From: Kangiella sp.
GTDB lineage: Bacteria > Pseudomonadota > Gammaproteobacteria > Enterobacterales > Kangiellaceae
Length of the DNA: 64,000 nt
Direction of reading: 5' to 3'
NCBI GenBank assembly: GCA_028284185.1
Contig: JANQSG010000020.1
Coordinates: 62,001 to 126,000, forward strand
Below, one piece after another: positions 17,203 through 23,512 of the stretch; within the stretch, counting starts at the first letter, position 1; each line of letters starts with the position of its first letter. Both the position numbers and the translations under genes were made by a program. Under the pieces are notes generated by a model. The model was not told where the DNA came from. It saw nothing but the letters and a program-made list of their open reading frames with translations, and made no database searches.

Positions 17203-17565
17203 CTAGTTTTGTTGTAAGCGCTCTTGTTCTGCAAATAAAAACTCCAAGCTATTTTTAGCATGTCGCAGGTGAGGAATGACGATAGAACCGCCTACCAGCA
17301 TGGCAACGCCCATGGCCTCATCAATTTCATCACGATTCCAGCCCAATTTAACCGCTTGTTCCAGATGGTAATCGATGCAATCATTACAACGTAACACCAT
17401 TGAAGTGACTAGTCCTAATAACTCTTTGGTTTTTTTATCGAGAGCACCATCACCATAGGCAGTTTTATCCAGCCCGAAAAAACGTTTGACTAGCAAGCTA
17501 TTGGTTTGCAGGGCGGCTTCATTTCCCGCTAATCGTTTTTCACGAAACTCTTCAAAGGGGTGCAT
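17203..17565 (-). CDS. Carboxymuconolactone decarboxylase / AhpD-family protein
   Basis: A small all-helical protein of the CMD/AhpD superfamily. The CxxC motif and following His are visible in RCNDCIDYHLEQAVKLG, which suggests a thiol-disulfide or peroxidase-type role rather than true decarboxylase activity. The start at 17565 (MHPFEEF) is chosen because a strong AGGAGT lies 7-8 bases upstream; the longer frame from 17583 includes that site. 120 residues. It sits 27 bp past the DAHP synthase stop on the same strand, so it may be on the pheA-aroG transcript. Confidence 0.82.
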   Translation of the reverse strand: MHPFEEFREKRLAGNEAALQTNSLLVKRFFGLDKTAYGDGALDKKTKELLGLVTSMVLRCNDCIDYHLEQAVKLGWNRDEIDEAMGVAMLVGGSIVIPHLRHAKNSLEFLFAEQERLQQN

Positions 17566-17592
17566 GAATTTTACTCCTGTCATCTAATTACT

Positions 17593-18636
17593 CTAAGAAA
17601 GGCTTAAGTAAGCTTGCTCAAGCAGCTCTTCAGTCGTTTGCCAGCTGATGCAGGCATCGGTAATTGAAACGCCATATTCCAATTGTTCTTTGGCAGTGTT
17701 CATAGACTGATTACCTGCCTTTAAATGGCTTTCTAACATAACACCAATAATTGATTGATTGCCAGCAACTTTTTGCTGCAAAATATTTTCAAGTACTTTA
17801 GGTTGATTACGATAGTCTTTATTAGAATTACCGTGACTGCAATCTACAATAAATTTAGGATTGATTGATACTTTTTCAAGCTTTTGCTCTAAATTTTTAA
17901 TACTGGCTTCTTCGTAATTTGGTGTTTTGCCGCCACGCAAAATAATATGCGCATCAGGGTTACCTTTGGTTCTTAATAAAGCCACTTTTCCATGACTGTC
18001 AATACCCATAAAGCTGTGCGCTGACTTTGCTGCAATCAGAGCATTAATAGCGATATCCAAAGAGCCATCGGTGCCGTTTTTAAAGCCTACCGGCATGGAT
18101 AAACCCGATGCCATTTCGCGATGGGTTTGCGATTCTGTGGTCCTTGCTCCAATCGCAGACCAGCTGATCAGATCGGATAAGTATTGTGGTGATATGGGAT
18201 CTAGTGCTTCGGTAGCTGATGCTAATCCTAATTCAGCTAGCCAGTTTAACAATGCGCGCGCACGTCTTAAGCCGGAATCAACATTAAAACTGCCATTGAG
18301 CTCAGGATCATTAATAAAGCCTTTCCAGCCAATATGGGTTCTGGGTTTTTCAAAATAGACCCGCATCAGAATTAACAATTTATCTTCATACTTATCAGCG
18401 AGAGCTTTAAGTTTTAAAGCGTACTCCTTTGCTGCTTCTATATCATGAATTGAACAGGGGCCACAGATAACAATAAGTCGCTTATCTTTACCACTCAATA
18501 TATCTGCAATAGCACTACGGGTTTTGGTTACTAATTGCGCAGCATTATCGCTTAAAGGAAGGTCCTGTTTGAGAGCTGCAGGTGAGGTTAATATATCTAT
18601 TTTTTCAATGTTTAAGTTGTTGGTTTTTATGGTCAT
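17593..18636 (-). CDS. 3-deoxy-7-phosphoheptulonate synthase (DAHP synthase, class I)
   Basis: First committed step of the shikimate pathway: condenses PEP and erythrose 4-phosphate. It is the AroF/G/H type: 347 residues with VICGPCSIHD, MRVYFEKPRTHIGWKGFIND, the long RRARALLNWLAELGLASATE segment, GFKNGTDG and VDCSHGNSNKDY. I cannot tell from sequence alone which of Phe, Tyr or Trp inhibits it. It is 17 bp downstream of pheA on the same strand, so both should respond to the leader region upstream of pheA. Confidence 0.94.
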   Translation of the reverse strand: MTIKTNNLNIEKIDILTSPAALKQDLPLSDNAAQLVTKTRSAIADILSGKDKRLIVICGPCSIHDIEAAKEYALKLKALADKYEDKLLILMRVYFEKPRTHIGWKGFINDPELNGSFNVDSGLRRARALLNWLAELGLASATEALDPISPQYLSDLISWSAIGARTTESQTHREMASGLSMPVGFKNGTDGSLDIAINALIAAKSAHSFMGIDSHGKVALLRTKGNPDAHIILRGGKTPNYEEASIKNLEQKLEKVSINPKFIVDCSHGNSNKDYRNQPKVLENILQQKVAGNQSIIGVMLESHLKAGNQSMNTAKEQLEYGVSITDACISWQTTEELLEQAYLSLS

Positions 18637-18653: not shown

Positions 18654-19847
18654 TTAAGTATTATCAATAGTGCTTAAAGCTTTGGCATCAAGGTGAGTGG
18701 CTAGAATATCGTGTTGTGGATAGCAGCCAAGCACCTTGATTTTTCTAGCGCTTTGTTCGATTTCATAGAGCATTTTTTCGATCTCTAAATCTTGTGTATT
18801 ACCTTCAAAATCAATATAAAACATTTCCTGCCAGGGTTTGCCTGGGATCGGACGGGACTCGATTTTGGTCATATTGACTTGATGGTTTTTTAAGATAACC
18901 AGGCAGTCAGCCAACGAACCTGCTTTTTGTTTGGTAGTTAATACAATACTGGTTTTTGCCGGTATTTTTTCAGGAACTTTAATGGTGTCTTTGCTCAACA
19001 AAAGAAAGCGGGTATAGTTTTCCTGATAATTATTAATGCCGGCTTTTATAATTTTTAAACCCGAATCTATTGCCGCTTCTTCGCTGGCTATGGCTGCAAT
19101 ACTGGGGTTTTGATACTCCTCAACCAGTTTAATAGCCGAGCTGGTACTGGAGCGGAAGTGACTCACAATATTAGTATGGTTGTCCAAAAAGTCTTTGCAC
19201 TGGCTAATTGCTTGTGGATGCGAATAGACGTCTTTAATTTGTTCTAAACTTGAGTTTTGAGTGGAAATTAAACAGTGTTTTACCTTGAGTTTTTCTTCTC
19301 CAACGATCTTGGCATCATATTCTAACAACAAATCATGAATATCTGTGATATTGCCCGAATTGGTATTTTCAATCGGCACTAGGGCAAAGTTGCATTGGTC
19401 ATTTTTCAGTGATTCGAAAATTTGTTTAAAGCTTTTAAGATAATGCGGCTTATACTTTATGCTTTTGGTAGCAAAGTGGTTTTTTGCGGCGATAGCGCTG
19501 TAAGAGGTTTCACTGCCAAGTAATGCCAACTCTATAATTCCATCTTGCGTTTCTTCCTGTGACAGGAAGTAGTCATATTGAGTACGAATAGAATCTTCAA
19601 TAATGTTATGGAACAGGCTCAAGGTTGTTGATGAGTCCAAACCTAGCTTTTCAGCATCAGACAATAGCTTGGAAAGCAGTTTTCTTTCCTGCTGTTGGTC
19701 TCGTATATTGAGCTGATTTTTATGTTTGGCTGCAGCAACTTTTGCACTTAATAGCCGTCTTTTGGCAAAGATCTCAAGCAACTCTTTATCTAAATTGTTG
19801 ATATCGTTTCGTAAATGTTTCAGTGGATCATCGGTCATAGTATTCAC
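18654..19847 (-). CDS. pheA: Bifunctional chorismate mutase / prephenate dehydratase
   Basis: Converts chorismate to phenylpyruvate in phenylalanine synthesis. Residues about 8-95 are an AroQ-type chorismate mutase (LRNDINNLDKELLEIFAKRR, VAAAKHKN). Residues about 105-285 are the prephenate dehydratase (GSETSYSAIAAKNHF, FALVPIENTNSGNI, NYTRFLLLSKD). The last about 90 residues form an ACT domain, with ESRPIPGKPWQEMFYIDFEG, the Phe-binding regulatory part. The 397 residues equal a normal P-protein. A leader peptide and terminator precede it on the same strand. The ATG at 19847 or the one at 19838 could be the true start. Confidence 0.95.
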   Translation of the reverse strand: MNTMTDDPLKHLRNDINNLDKELLEIFAKRRLLSAKVAAAKHKNQLNIRDQQQERKLLSKLLSDAEKLGLDSSTTLSLFHNIIEDSIRTQYDYFLSQEETQDGIIELALLGSETSYSAIAAKNHFATKSIKYKPHYLKSFKQIFESLKNDQCNFALVPIENTNSGNITDIHDLLLEYDAKIVGEEKLKVKHCLISTQNSSLEQIKDVYSHPQAISQCKDFLDNHTNIVSHFRSSTSSAIKLVEEYQNPSIAAIASEEAAIDSGLKIIKAGINNYQENYTRFLLLSKDTIKVPEKIPAKTSIVLTTKQKAGSLADCLVILKNHQVNMTKIESRPIPGKPWQEMFYIDFEGNTQDLEIEKMLYEIEQSARKIKVLGCYPQHDILATHLDAKALSTIDNT

Positions 19848-19864
19848 TTGTTTTTGTTGCGAGC

Positions 19865-19890
19865 AAAAAAAACCTCCAGTTAAGGAGGTT
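19865..19890 (-). terminator. Attenuator terminator upstream of pheA
   Basis: Minus-strand RNA would form a 7 bp stem AACCUCC (19890-19884) / GGAGGUU (19877-19871) with loop UUAACU, followed by a run of eight U. It lies only 18 bp before the pheA start, where a full terminator makes sense only as an attenuator. A competing partner AGGAGG is at 19917-19912, 20 bases 5' of the stem. Confidence 0.8.
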
Positions 19891-19919
19891 TCATTTGTTC
19901 AATCCAAAAGGCCTCCTAC

Positions 19920-19970
19920 TCAGGTGTGAGCATAAAAGTAACCGTAGTGGAAAGAAGCTAATCTAGTCAT
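19920..19970 (-). CDS. Aromatic-rich leader peptide of the pheA-DAHP synthase operon
   Basis: A 16-codon reading frame, MTRLASFHYGYFYAHT, ending in TGA at 19920. Its core FHYGYFY holds two Phe and three Tyr within seven codons, the composition expected of a leader whose ribosome senses charged tRNA-Phe and tRNA-Tyr. The stop codon is 3 bases before AGGAGG (19917-19912), which can pair with CCUCCU of the terminator stem. A ribosome reaching the stop would cover it and allow termination; one stalled in the aromatic codons would leave it free to block the terminator. There is no good Shine-Dalgarno site; see the promoter entry. Confidence 0.78.
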   Translation of the reverse strand: MTRLASFHYGYFYAHT

Positions 19971-19977
19971 AGGGCTG

Positions 19978-20006
19978 ATTGTTTATCGTTCTTTTTAATT
20001 TGTCAA
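19978..20006 (-). promoter_or_regulatory. Promoter for the pheA leader transcript
   Basis: On the minus strand a consensus -35 box TTGACA (20006-20001) is separated by 17 bp from AACAAT (19983-19978), a 4 of 6 match to the -10 box. The predicted start of transcription would fall at or within a base or two of the leader-peptide ATG (19970). That would make the leader peptide mRNA almost leaderless. Confidence 0.55.
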
Positions 20007-20075: not shown

Positions 20076-21869
20076 ATGAACTATTCATACGAAGATGACA
20101 ATATAAAAAAGAATGACCTGGAGTCAGGGCAGGAGCAGCCATTACTGGATCGAGAGGATTTAGTGGAACTCTTGTCTTCTGGTTCGGTTAATTGGAACGA
20201 ATGGCGCTATCAAAACCCTAAAGCTAAAATCGTCTTGGACGGCGAAGATCTTCGCGGCTTGGACTTGTCAGATTGTGATTTGTCAGAAGTCAGTCTAATC
20301 GGAACAAATTTATCTTATTCCGATTTAAAAAATGCTATTTTAATTGCAGCAGATCTTAGTCAGGCCAATCTATGCTATTGCAATTTAACCAATGCCAAAT
20401 TAATTGCAGCAAATTTATATCAAGCTAATTTAGCACATGCTAATGTTTTGCACGCTAATTTCCTGACTGCTATGTGCAAACAGGCGGATTTTTCCAATGT
20501 GGATTTCAAGGATCAGGATTTGCGTGGACAAAATCTAAAAGAAGCGAATTTATCTGGAGCCGATCTACGACGACAAAATCTGGAAGGGATTGATTTGCGC
20601 GGTGCCAGATTAATCGGTGCTAACCTGGATGAAGTGAATCTGATTGCAGCCAATCTAGAAAGTGCAAATCTTTCTGATGTCGATTTATCAAGCTGTGAAC
20701 TCAATGGGGCTGTTTTAAACAATTGTGTATTGAATAATTGCAACCTGTCTCGTCAGGATCTCAGTGGTTTTAGCTTTACTAATAGCCATATGAAAGGGGT
20801 GGACTTAAGAGAGGCCAATCTTTCCAAAGCGAATCTGGATGGTGTTGATTTGAGCTCTGCCAAGTTATGGCAGGTACAAACCAAAGGTTGGTCAATTCGT
20901 GGCTTGATTTGTACCCATGCCAGTTGGGATCAAAGAGGGCGCGAATATACGCACTATACCCGTAACCAGTTTGAAAAACTGTTTGCGGATAAAATCAGCT
21001 TTCAACTTTATTATCAACGTATGTTGTCTTATCAGGATTTAGCGACCTTACCATTTTTGATTGAGCATATGGAAGCGAGCTTTTGGGGCTGCAAGTTACG
21101 GGTCCGTGAAATTCGTAATGAACCTGGCGATACAGTAGTTGTATTGGTGGTAGAGGATACCGGCGGTCTAAACCCTTCGGTGCTGGAAAGTAGCCTGCAA
21201 CAGGAAGCGGACAAATTACAATCGATCCAGATCAGCTTACAGTCTGAGCGTAAATTGCAGTCTGAGATTCGTGAATCCATGCAAGCGATTAAAGATCGCT
21301 ATTGGCCGAAATTATTAGAACTTTCAGAGCAGGATAGTGATTCTAAAATGCGCCGAATGGCCGTTTTATTTACCGACTTGAAAGGATTTTCCAATTGGGA
21401 AAAGGAGGAAAGAACAGAAAAGCTGGCGCTGTTTAGAGGCTTGTTAAAGCCGGTTATGAAACAATGGCAAGCTAGTTATCCAAACATGGAAGGGGATTCA
21501 TTAAGAGCAACCTTTACTACTGTTAGTCAGGCACTGGGTTGTGCAGCCATGATGCAAAAGGTCTTACATGGCGCAGGTTTTGTGGTACGTATTGGTCTGG
21601 ATATTGGCGATGTCAAAATAACCCATAATGAAATTACTGAGCAACTGGATATTGAAGGTGATGCGCTTAATTTTGCCGCTCGTTTGGAAAGCATGGCAGA
21701 ACCAGGAGCAGTTCTGGTTTCGGAAAATGTTCGCCATTATGCAATCCAAAGTGATGCTCCATTCATATTCAAAGAGCAGCGTTTGGCGCTTAAAAAATCT
21801 GTAGGTGATAGACAGGCTGGTGATATAGTGGTGTGCTTTATGGCGCAGCCTATGAGTGATTTAAAATAA
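20076..21869 (+). CDS. Pentapeptide-repeat protein with class III adenylate/guanylate cyclase domain
   Basis: A 597-residue fusion. Residues about 53-265 are roughly 40 pentapeptide repeats of the A(D/N)LxX type (for example ANLYQANLAHANVLHANFL), forming a right-handed quadrilateral beta helix. Residues 270-410 are a linker with no clear family, ending in a likely coiled coil (about 370-405). Residues 425-597 are a class III nucleotide cyclase. Both metal-binding aspartates are present (Asp434 in LFTDLKGFS and Asp474 in EGDSLRATF), and so are the transition-state Asn532 and Arg536 in GDALNFAARLE, so it should be active. There is no signal peptide or membrane segment. GGGGG precedes the ATG. 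Product, cAMP or cGMP, cannot be decided by eye. Confidence 0.88.
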   Translation: MNYSYEDDNIKKNDLESGQEQPLLDREDLVELLSSGSVNWNEWRYQNPKAKIVLDGEDLRGLDLSDCDLSEVSLIGTNLSYSDLKNAILIAADLSQANLCYCNLTNAKLIAANLYQANLAHANVLHANFLTAMCKQADFSNVDFKDQDLRGQNLKEANLSGADLRRQNLEGIDLRGARLIGANLDEVNLIAANLESANLSDVDLSSCELNGAVLNNCVLNNCNLSRQDLSGFSFTNSHMKGVDLREANLSKANLDGVDLSSAKLWQVQTKGWSIRGLICTHASWDQRGREYTHYTRNQFEKLFADKISFQLYYQRMLSYQDLATLPFLIEHMEASFWGCKLRVREIRNEPGDTVVVLVVEDTGGLNPSVLESSLQQEADKLQSIQISLQSERKLQSEIRESMQAIKDRYWPKLLELSEQDSDSKMRRMAVLFTDLKGFSNWEKEERTEKLALFRGLLKPVMKQWQASYPNMEGDSLRATFTTVSQALGCAAMMQKVLHGAGFVVRIGLDIGDVKITHNEITEQLDIEGDALNFAARLESMAEPGAVLVSENVRHYAIQSDAPFIFKEQRLALKKSVGDRQAGDIVVCFMAQPMSDLK

Positions 21870-23159: not shown

Positions 23160-23512
23160 TTCTTTGCCGTTAGCATTTTTTACTACCCTTATATTTAGAT
23201 GAGGAAAATAGAACTTATAGCAATTCAAATCATGGATGATTTGAATAATGAAAATCAGTACAGGGAAGTGCTGTTTTTCATGGTGCGTTAAGTAAGGGAT
23301 ATTTTTTGAAGGGAGTCGCGAAGAGACCTAAATATCGGGTGTCTTTTCTTTTATGAAATACATCCTTGTATTTCACCTTTAGGGCTGGCTTTGCCATTCA
23401 AAATTGCTCCTGGCAATTTTGTGGTTCGTTTTCTTTAGACAAGTAAACGATCGGAGGAAGTCTCTTTAGAGAGAAAATGAACAATAAAAGCAGATAGAAA
23501 ATATTGATACAT
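23160..23512. other. Noncoding, palindrome-rich gap
   Basis: No convincing gene on either strand. It holds two perfect hairpins: GAAATAC/GTATTTC (23355-23374, 6-base loop) and AAAATTGC/GCAATTTT (23400-23420, 5-base loop), plus TCTCT/AGAGA at about 23461-23473. Base composition between them is more GC-rich than flanking spacers. The arrangement looks like a degenerate nonautonomous element. Confidence 0.45.

Follow-up and report, generated by a model that had tools for sequence, protein, structure and literature searches.

A predicted leaderless attenuator with phenylalanine and tyrosine codons upstream of pheA and a DAHP synthase gene in Kangiella

The pheA-DAHP synthase operon of a Kangiella sp. 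genome (NCBI GenBank assembly GCA_028284185.1) is probably controlled by a ribosome-mediated transcription attenuator with a leaderless start and a leader peptide that would sense both phenylalanine and tyrosine, as judged from sequence comparison and a folding model. The element lies in a window of 64,000 nucleotides, by which we mean the whole stretch of DNA that was analysed (contig JANQSG010000020.1, positions 62,001 to 126,000 of the forward strand; coordinates below are window positions). That it is an attenuator of some kind we regard as close to certain; the leaderless start and the sensing of tyrosine carry their own, lower confidence and are discussed with the evidence that bears on each.

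All parts of the element are on the minus strand. A TTGACA -35 box (20001..20006), picked up by a promoter scan, is separated by a 17-nt spacer from an AACAAT -10 box (19978..19983; 10 of 12 consensus matches), and 7 nt past the latter begins the ATG of a 16-codon leader ORF, MTRLASFHYGYFYAHT (19920..19970; ATG 19970-19968, TGA 19922-19920). This leader contains two Phe, three Tyr and two His codons and is aromatic-rich rather than Phe-rich. AGGAGG (19912..19917), the core of region 2 and putative 5' arm of an antiterminator, follows 2 nt past the leader stop. Next comes CCUCCU (19883..19888), the core of region 3, which according to sequence and folds would act both as 3' arm of the antiterminator and as 5' arm of an intrinsic terminator (19865..19892; stem 19892-19869, eight-T run 19872-19865). 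The gene downstream is pheA (18654..19838), which encodes a bifunctional chorismate mutase/prephenate dehydratase; ATG 19838 is the preferred start, and an upstream GTG (19847), given in the ORF list, is possible. An AroFGH-type 3-deoxy-7-phosphoheptulonate (DAHP) synthase gene (17593..18636) lies 17 nt 3' of pheA, and a gene for an AhpD-family small protein (17203..17583) lies 9 nt further 3'; from this spacing it is probably the third gene of the operon, the three genes probably forming a single unit. A preliminary description of this DNA had named the promoter, the 16-codon frame, AGGAGG, the CCUCCU terminator with its eight T, pheA and the DAHP synthase gene, and each was located where it had been placed. 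Elsewhere in the window, the divergent gene at 20076-21869 (plus strand) has an N-terminal half with pentapeptide repeats and, near its C-terminus, matches part of a lipase/adenylate cyclase model, and positions 23218-23294 (plus strand) match the Rfam TwoAYGGAY RNA (46.6 bits, cut-off 43).

Individually, the signals differ in strength. For the terminator (19860-19895) the folding energy is -13.1 kcal/mol (z -4.6), a value that none of 200 shuffles equalled, and the leader part without it (19890-19970) folds no better than shuffles (z -0.67). In a 600-nt scan, the promoter alone was not above chance (2 found vs 1.7 expected), and the case therefore rests on comparison. The AACAAT -10 box is weak. 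As a specific signature, the pattern TTGAC-N19-A-N2-AT-N6..8-ATG was rejected: it occurs at 3 places in the window's genome, the pheA site included, vs 7 in a reversed control, and therefore has no specificity by itself.

For the comparison, 110 pheA upstream regions were collected: the 30 best matches of a first genome search, 20 more of its matches and 60 from a wider search, hand-picked for genus spread before the upstream DNA was viewed. The wider search matched 257 of 295 genomes; its regions were drawn among the matches listed, and families with weak matches are absent from the sample. These loci are related by ancestry and are not independent. Families and genera are given as anonymous labels (f1, f6, g96 etc.). 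The closest named relatives of the window pheA are nine Kangiella / Kangiellaceae loci at 56-60% identity. The same genus is represented by the window genome and 19 others, with a pheA match in 18 of the 20; the remaining two (G009 and G019) have neither a pheA match nor a class I DAHP synthase, though listed as 100% complete, and have probably lost the Phe branch.

Within the genus, an aromatic leader plus terminator was found at 15 of 18 pheA loci. Conservation of the aromatic codons in close relatives had been proposed as a check on the preliminary description, and it holds, since at least two Tyr and at least two Phe codons are present in all 15 leaders, 12 of which contain YYFYFFT or FYFYFFT. 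The nearest relative of the window (L002) has the leader MKTLNLYPFSFFYAQT, and L003 has MKYSTNSSFYFYFYGLNG. At the same 15 loci, the -35 box reads TTGACA, TTGACT or TTGATT and the gap between the -10 box and the leader ATG is invariably 6 or 7 nt. Across all 76 leaders of the sample, the base immediately 5' of CCTCC and the one opposite it in the terminator form G-C in 34 cases, A-T in 30 and G-T in 4 (8 unscored), counts that support the hairpin. The terminator and leader are both absent upstream of pheA at the other three same-genus loci (L004, L007 and L018), which by eye keep a promoter-like TTGACA element 5' of the gene; pheA can therefore do without an attenuator. These loci lend something to the idea that a short ORF happens to lie 5' of an ordinary terminator, or that the operon is constitutive and relies on read-through, with no attenuation in either case. 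Such an account is highly improbable given that the codons, the spacing and the modelled switch described below are conserved across five families and that relatives score above the Rfam cut-off.

The aromatic short ORF, terminator and T run sit directly 5' of pheA, as they do in the Rfam family Phe_leader (RF01859), which among Rfam families also matched the site best (24 bits, with E 0.056 over a search of 281 bases; cut-off 55). At that cut-off Phe_leader has no match in the window, and the opposite strand scores 19 bits, so that the window match rests largely on the terminator. Scores were higher in the same-genus loci L010, L013 and L016 (51.0, 47.9 and 44.3 bits), and 7 of 12 hand-picked loci reached 55. 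The window element thus scores below the family cut-off; it would work like the pheL attenuator and is probably a diverged homologue. It shares with the family the pheA target, the leader peptide, the terminator with its CCUCC/GGAGG core and the T run, and differs from it in mixing Phe and Tyr codons, in having no predicted 5' untranslated stretch and in the presence of DAHP synthase in the operon. Attenuators of bacterial operons have reportedly been surveyed comparatively by Vitreschak and colleagues. In Shewanella, a leader RNA of pheA comprising a leader peptide and a terminator has been predicted computationally and was matched to the Rfam Trp_leader; the accessible portion of that paper makes no mention of a leaderless start (PMC2659441). 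Likewise, the portion available of a flavobacterial study describes a structured element 5' of pheA and leader-peptide attenuation, with no claim of a leaderless phe leader (PMC9723704). Among the matches listed in the open-licence literature, none joined a leaderless start to a phe leader in Kangiella relatives.

The preliminary description had also proposed that AGGAGG and the CCUCCU of the terminator form a mutually exclusive fold. We addressed this with a thermodynamic ribosome-masking model, in which region 4 is absent, an assumed ribosome footprint is masked codon by codon and the pairing of region 3 with any upstream base is scored. For the window, modelled region 3 pairing is 0.64 with the A site at codons 4-14, 0.52 at codon 15 and about 0.06-0.07 at codon 16 and afterwards, compared to 0.38 without a ribosome. 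When the sequence separating region 3 from the last aromatic codon was shuffled, a difference between stalled and later positions as large as that observed was obtained in 0 of 60 trials. In the model, stalls at early non-aromatic codons give the identical value of 0.64. The difference (stalled minus after) is positive in all 15 same-genus leaders, ranging from +0.33 to +0.76, and between 0 and 4 of the 60 shuffles per leader equal it, with stalled pairing of only 0.36-0.40 in L012 and L015-L017. Of the 61 leaders outside the genus, 58 show a positive difference, the exceptions being L019, L079 and L128. The proposed fold behaves as a switch in this model, the change coming once the last aromatic codons are passed, with ribosome position predicted to select between mutually exclusive antiterminator and terminator.

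The following sequence of events would account for these features. RNA polymerase would start at the leader ATG or no more than one or two bases from it, and a ribosome would load on the 5' end of the RNA without a Shine-Dalgarno site. When charged tRNA-Phe or tRNA-Tyr is scarce, the ribosome would stall at codons 7-13, leaving region 2 (AGGAGG) to pair with region 3 (CCUCCU); no terminator would form and pheA and the DAHP synthase gene would be transcribed. A ribosome that reaches the stop codon would instead cover region 2, region 3 would pair with region 4 and transcription would end in the U run. The mixture of Phe and Tyr codons would suit an operon whose DAHP synthase serves the supply of both.

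The proposal of a leaderless start comes from the distance between the promoter and the leader ATG. Our choice of leaders favours an ATG close to a promoter and so inflates leader-based spacing counts. A count blind to ORFs, which is free of leader choice, used the best promoter upstream of each terminator. Ninety-three of the 110 regions have a recognised terminator (17 do not), and 66 of these have a promoter scoring at least 8 (27 do not). An ATG was present 6-8 nt past the -10 box at 45 of the 66 promoters, when about 3 would be expected from the local ATG frequency (4.6%), and the spacing appeared at least once in 17 of 27 genera. By group, it was found in 13/13 same-genus regions, 3/6 from the rest of f1, 11/12 in f6, 10/13 in f7, 5/5 in f9 and 3/3 in f20, and in none from f10 (0/1), f15 (0/2), f18 (0/3), f21 (0/5) and f27 (0/3). 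The loci left out include L002, for which the wrong terminator was taken, and L014, whose promoter scores 7.5; both show the spacing once a leader is chosen. At one locus counted as a miss among the 66 (L087, f7 g96), promoter, spacing and terminator are retained and ACG replaces the expected leader ATG, which would make it either a decayed leader or one with a non-AUG start. With leaders chosen, a -10 box lies 5-9 nt before the ATG in 53 of 76, from 18 genera of f1, f6, f7, f9 and f20 (L019, one of the 53, is doubtful; the calls of L019, L090 and L128 are all doubtful and were retained in the counts). The corresponding distance between -10 box and start averages 6.3 nt in Streptomyces, according to the portion available of PMC8079986, and the RNA should therefore start at or beside the leader ATG. 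For the window, promoter spacing thus predicts an RNA starting at the ATG or 1-2 nt before it, and the conserved distance strengthens what had been offered as a guess, that the leader is possibly leaderless; we judge a leaderless start of the phe leader to be likely.

Other properties of the start region are less telling. The window leader starts with AUG and has no Shine-Dalgarno site, its anti-SD energy being 0 between -20 and -4. As a discriminator, absence of such a site is weak, values of -4 or lower being reached by 29% of window ORFs and 15% of random positions. The ATG is preceded by a pyrimidine in 49 of 53 leaderless-type leaders and in 19 of 23 others, so that this base is non-discriminating.

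It is also conceivable, though unlikely, that the attenuator is real and the leader is not leaderless: transcription would start further upstream or leave a short 5' UTR, with a weak or non-canonical ribosome site, and the constant spacing would reflect ancestry. AGGA- or GGGG-like stretches do occur upstream of some Kangiella leaders (L012 and L014-L017; anti-SD energy -4.0 to -5.4) and could serve as a weak Shine-Dalgarno site given a more upstream transcription start. Moreover, none of 17 phe leaders from f21 (0/5), f18 (0/3) and f25 (0/9) has a -10 box 5-9 nt before the ATG, and leaderlessness is therefore not required for the mechanism. Against this, the spacing is held in 18 genera and five families while the bases between -10 box and ATG differ and the spacer to the -35 box is either 17 or 18. 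In addition, the sole other promoter-like site found on the minus strand by the 600-nt scan (20127-20100; 9/12) lies about 130 nt upstream and has a lower score.

Further evidence against this alternative comes from other amino-acid leaders, compared in 18 genomes of f6, f7, f9 and f20, which were chosen because these families showed leaderless-type phe leaders. The 18 his, 17 trp and 18 leu loci yielded 18, 14 and 13 recognised leaders, respectively. Under one criterion, leaderless-type spacing was found in 31 of 34 phe leaders of these families (from 41 pheA regions, no leader being recognised in 7) and in 1/18 his, 0/14 trp and 0/13 leu leaders. The arrangement therefore goes with the phe leader in f6, f7, f9 and f20. 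The 18 genomes themselves show the phe spacing in 16 cases, and among the ORFs of the window it occurs in 1 of 48.

Comparable arrangements have been described in other bacteria. A small attenuator transcript of Sinorhizobium meliloti trpL reportedly has the ATG of the leader ORF as its first bases, in the text available of PMC7298713; the likeness to the window is an attenuator RNA that begins at the leader ATG (predicted here), and the difference is Trp there vs Phe/Tyr here. Leaderless leader peptides are also described for leuL, trpL and ilvL of Streptomyces lividans (PMC8079986) and for ilvBNC of Corynebacterium glutamicum (PMC11857589), in the portions of these papers at hand. As in the window, these actinobacterial peptides precede amino-acid genes, and there they are transcribed or translated leaderless. 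Leaderless transcripts are common in S. lividans (17%, from the same partial source), whereas outside f1 the arrangement seen here is found in the phe leader and hardly in his, trp or leu leaders. S. meliloti belongs to another class of bacteria than Kangiella. Among relatives of E. coli, leaderless translation is often seen as a minor or stress-linked route.

The second distinctive feature of the Kangiella leaders is their tyrosine codons. All 15 same-genus leaders have at least two (range 2-4), vs 3 of 61 leaders elsewhere, 51 of which have none; the three are L090 and L128, both doubtful ORF calls, and L023, a sound call. A DAHP synthase gene lies directly 3' of pheA on the same strand at all 15 attenuated same-genus loci vs none of the three others (Fisher 0.0012, uncorrected for ancestry). 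Twelve loci from other genera (L019-L030) have no same-strand DAHP synthase gene within 1.5 kb of pheA, and in four of them the opposite strand carries the end of such a gene. Of the 20 same-genus genomes, the 15 that have the class I enzyme carry one copy of it, and no copy was found in the remaining 5; a class II DAHP synthase is encoded elsewhere in 19 of the 20. These observations fit, and do not prove, a leader that reads both Phe and Tyr since its operon supplies both.

A Phe-only attenuator of pheL type, with incidental Tyr codons that do not sense tyrosine, is a minority possibility that has some points in its favour: the nearest Rfam family is Phe_leader, and Tyr (UAY) and Phe (UUY) codons are both pyrimidine-rich, a composition that the stretch pairing with region 2 may favour. 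It sits poorly with 2-4 Tyr codons in every same-genus leader vs zero in most others, and with the fact that Tyr codons accompany DAHP synthase in the operon, except in L023, which has the codons without the gene. We consider tyrosine sensing by the leader to be reasonably probable.

On a larger scale, the balance leans somewhat towards a leaderless start that the phe attenuator has maintained across five or more families of the Kangiella order (sampled in 18 genera) and that, in the four families where other amino-acid leaders were compared, hardly any of these shares; in this design the ribosome that does the sensing would load onto the very 5' bases of the RNA, and Kangiella would have retuned the attenuator to Phe plus Tyr when DAHP synthase joined the operon. 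If true, a conserved leaderless start that four families nearly restrict to a single leader would offer a natural test bed for why transcription-translation coupling might favour such a start, and also for how the amino acids sensed by an attenuator track operon content. Such leaders may be overlooked by gene finders that depend on Shine-Dalgarno sites.

Other biosynthetic leaders were also searched for within the genus. The ORFs listed for five same-genus genomes include no Trp-rich leader upstream of trpE and no ATG-started Leu-rich leader upstream of leuA, where the window's own genome has three TTG-started ORFs; whether all Kangiella leaders are leaderless can therefore be asked for his only. 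Upstream of hisG, a tandem pair of His-rich leader ORFs was seen in all five same-genus genomes (L149, L151, L154, L155 and L156), L154 coming from the genome of the window (G000, contig C11). The script found a terminator after the first ORF in 5/5 and after the second in 3/5, the other two being recognised by eye. The first ORF begins 6-7 nt past a TTTAAT -10 box in 4/5, a leaderless-type spacing, and the second is predicted to lie within the transcript, with a weak promoter-like element before it in L154. Among three other f1 genomes (L150, L152 and L153), L150 and L152 have their His leader ATG 6-7 nt past a -10-like box, and leaderless-type his leaders may thus be a trait of family f1.
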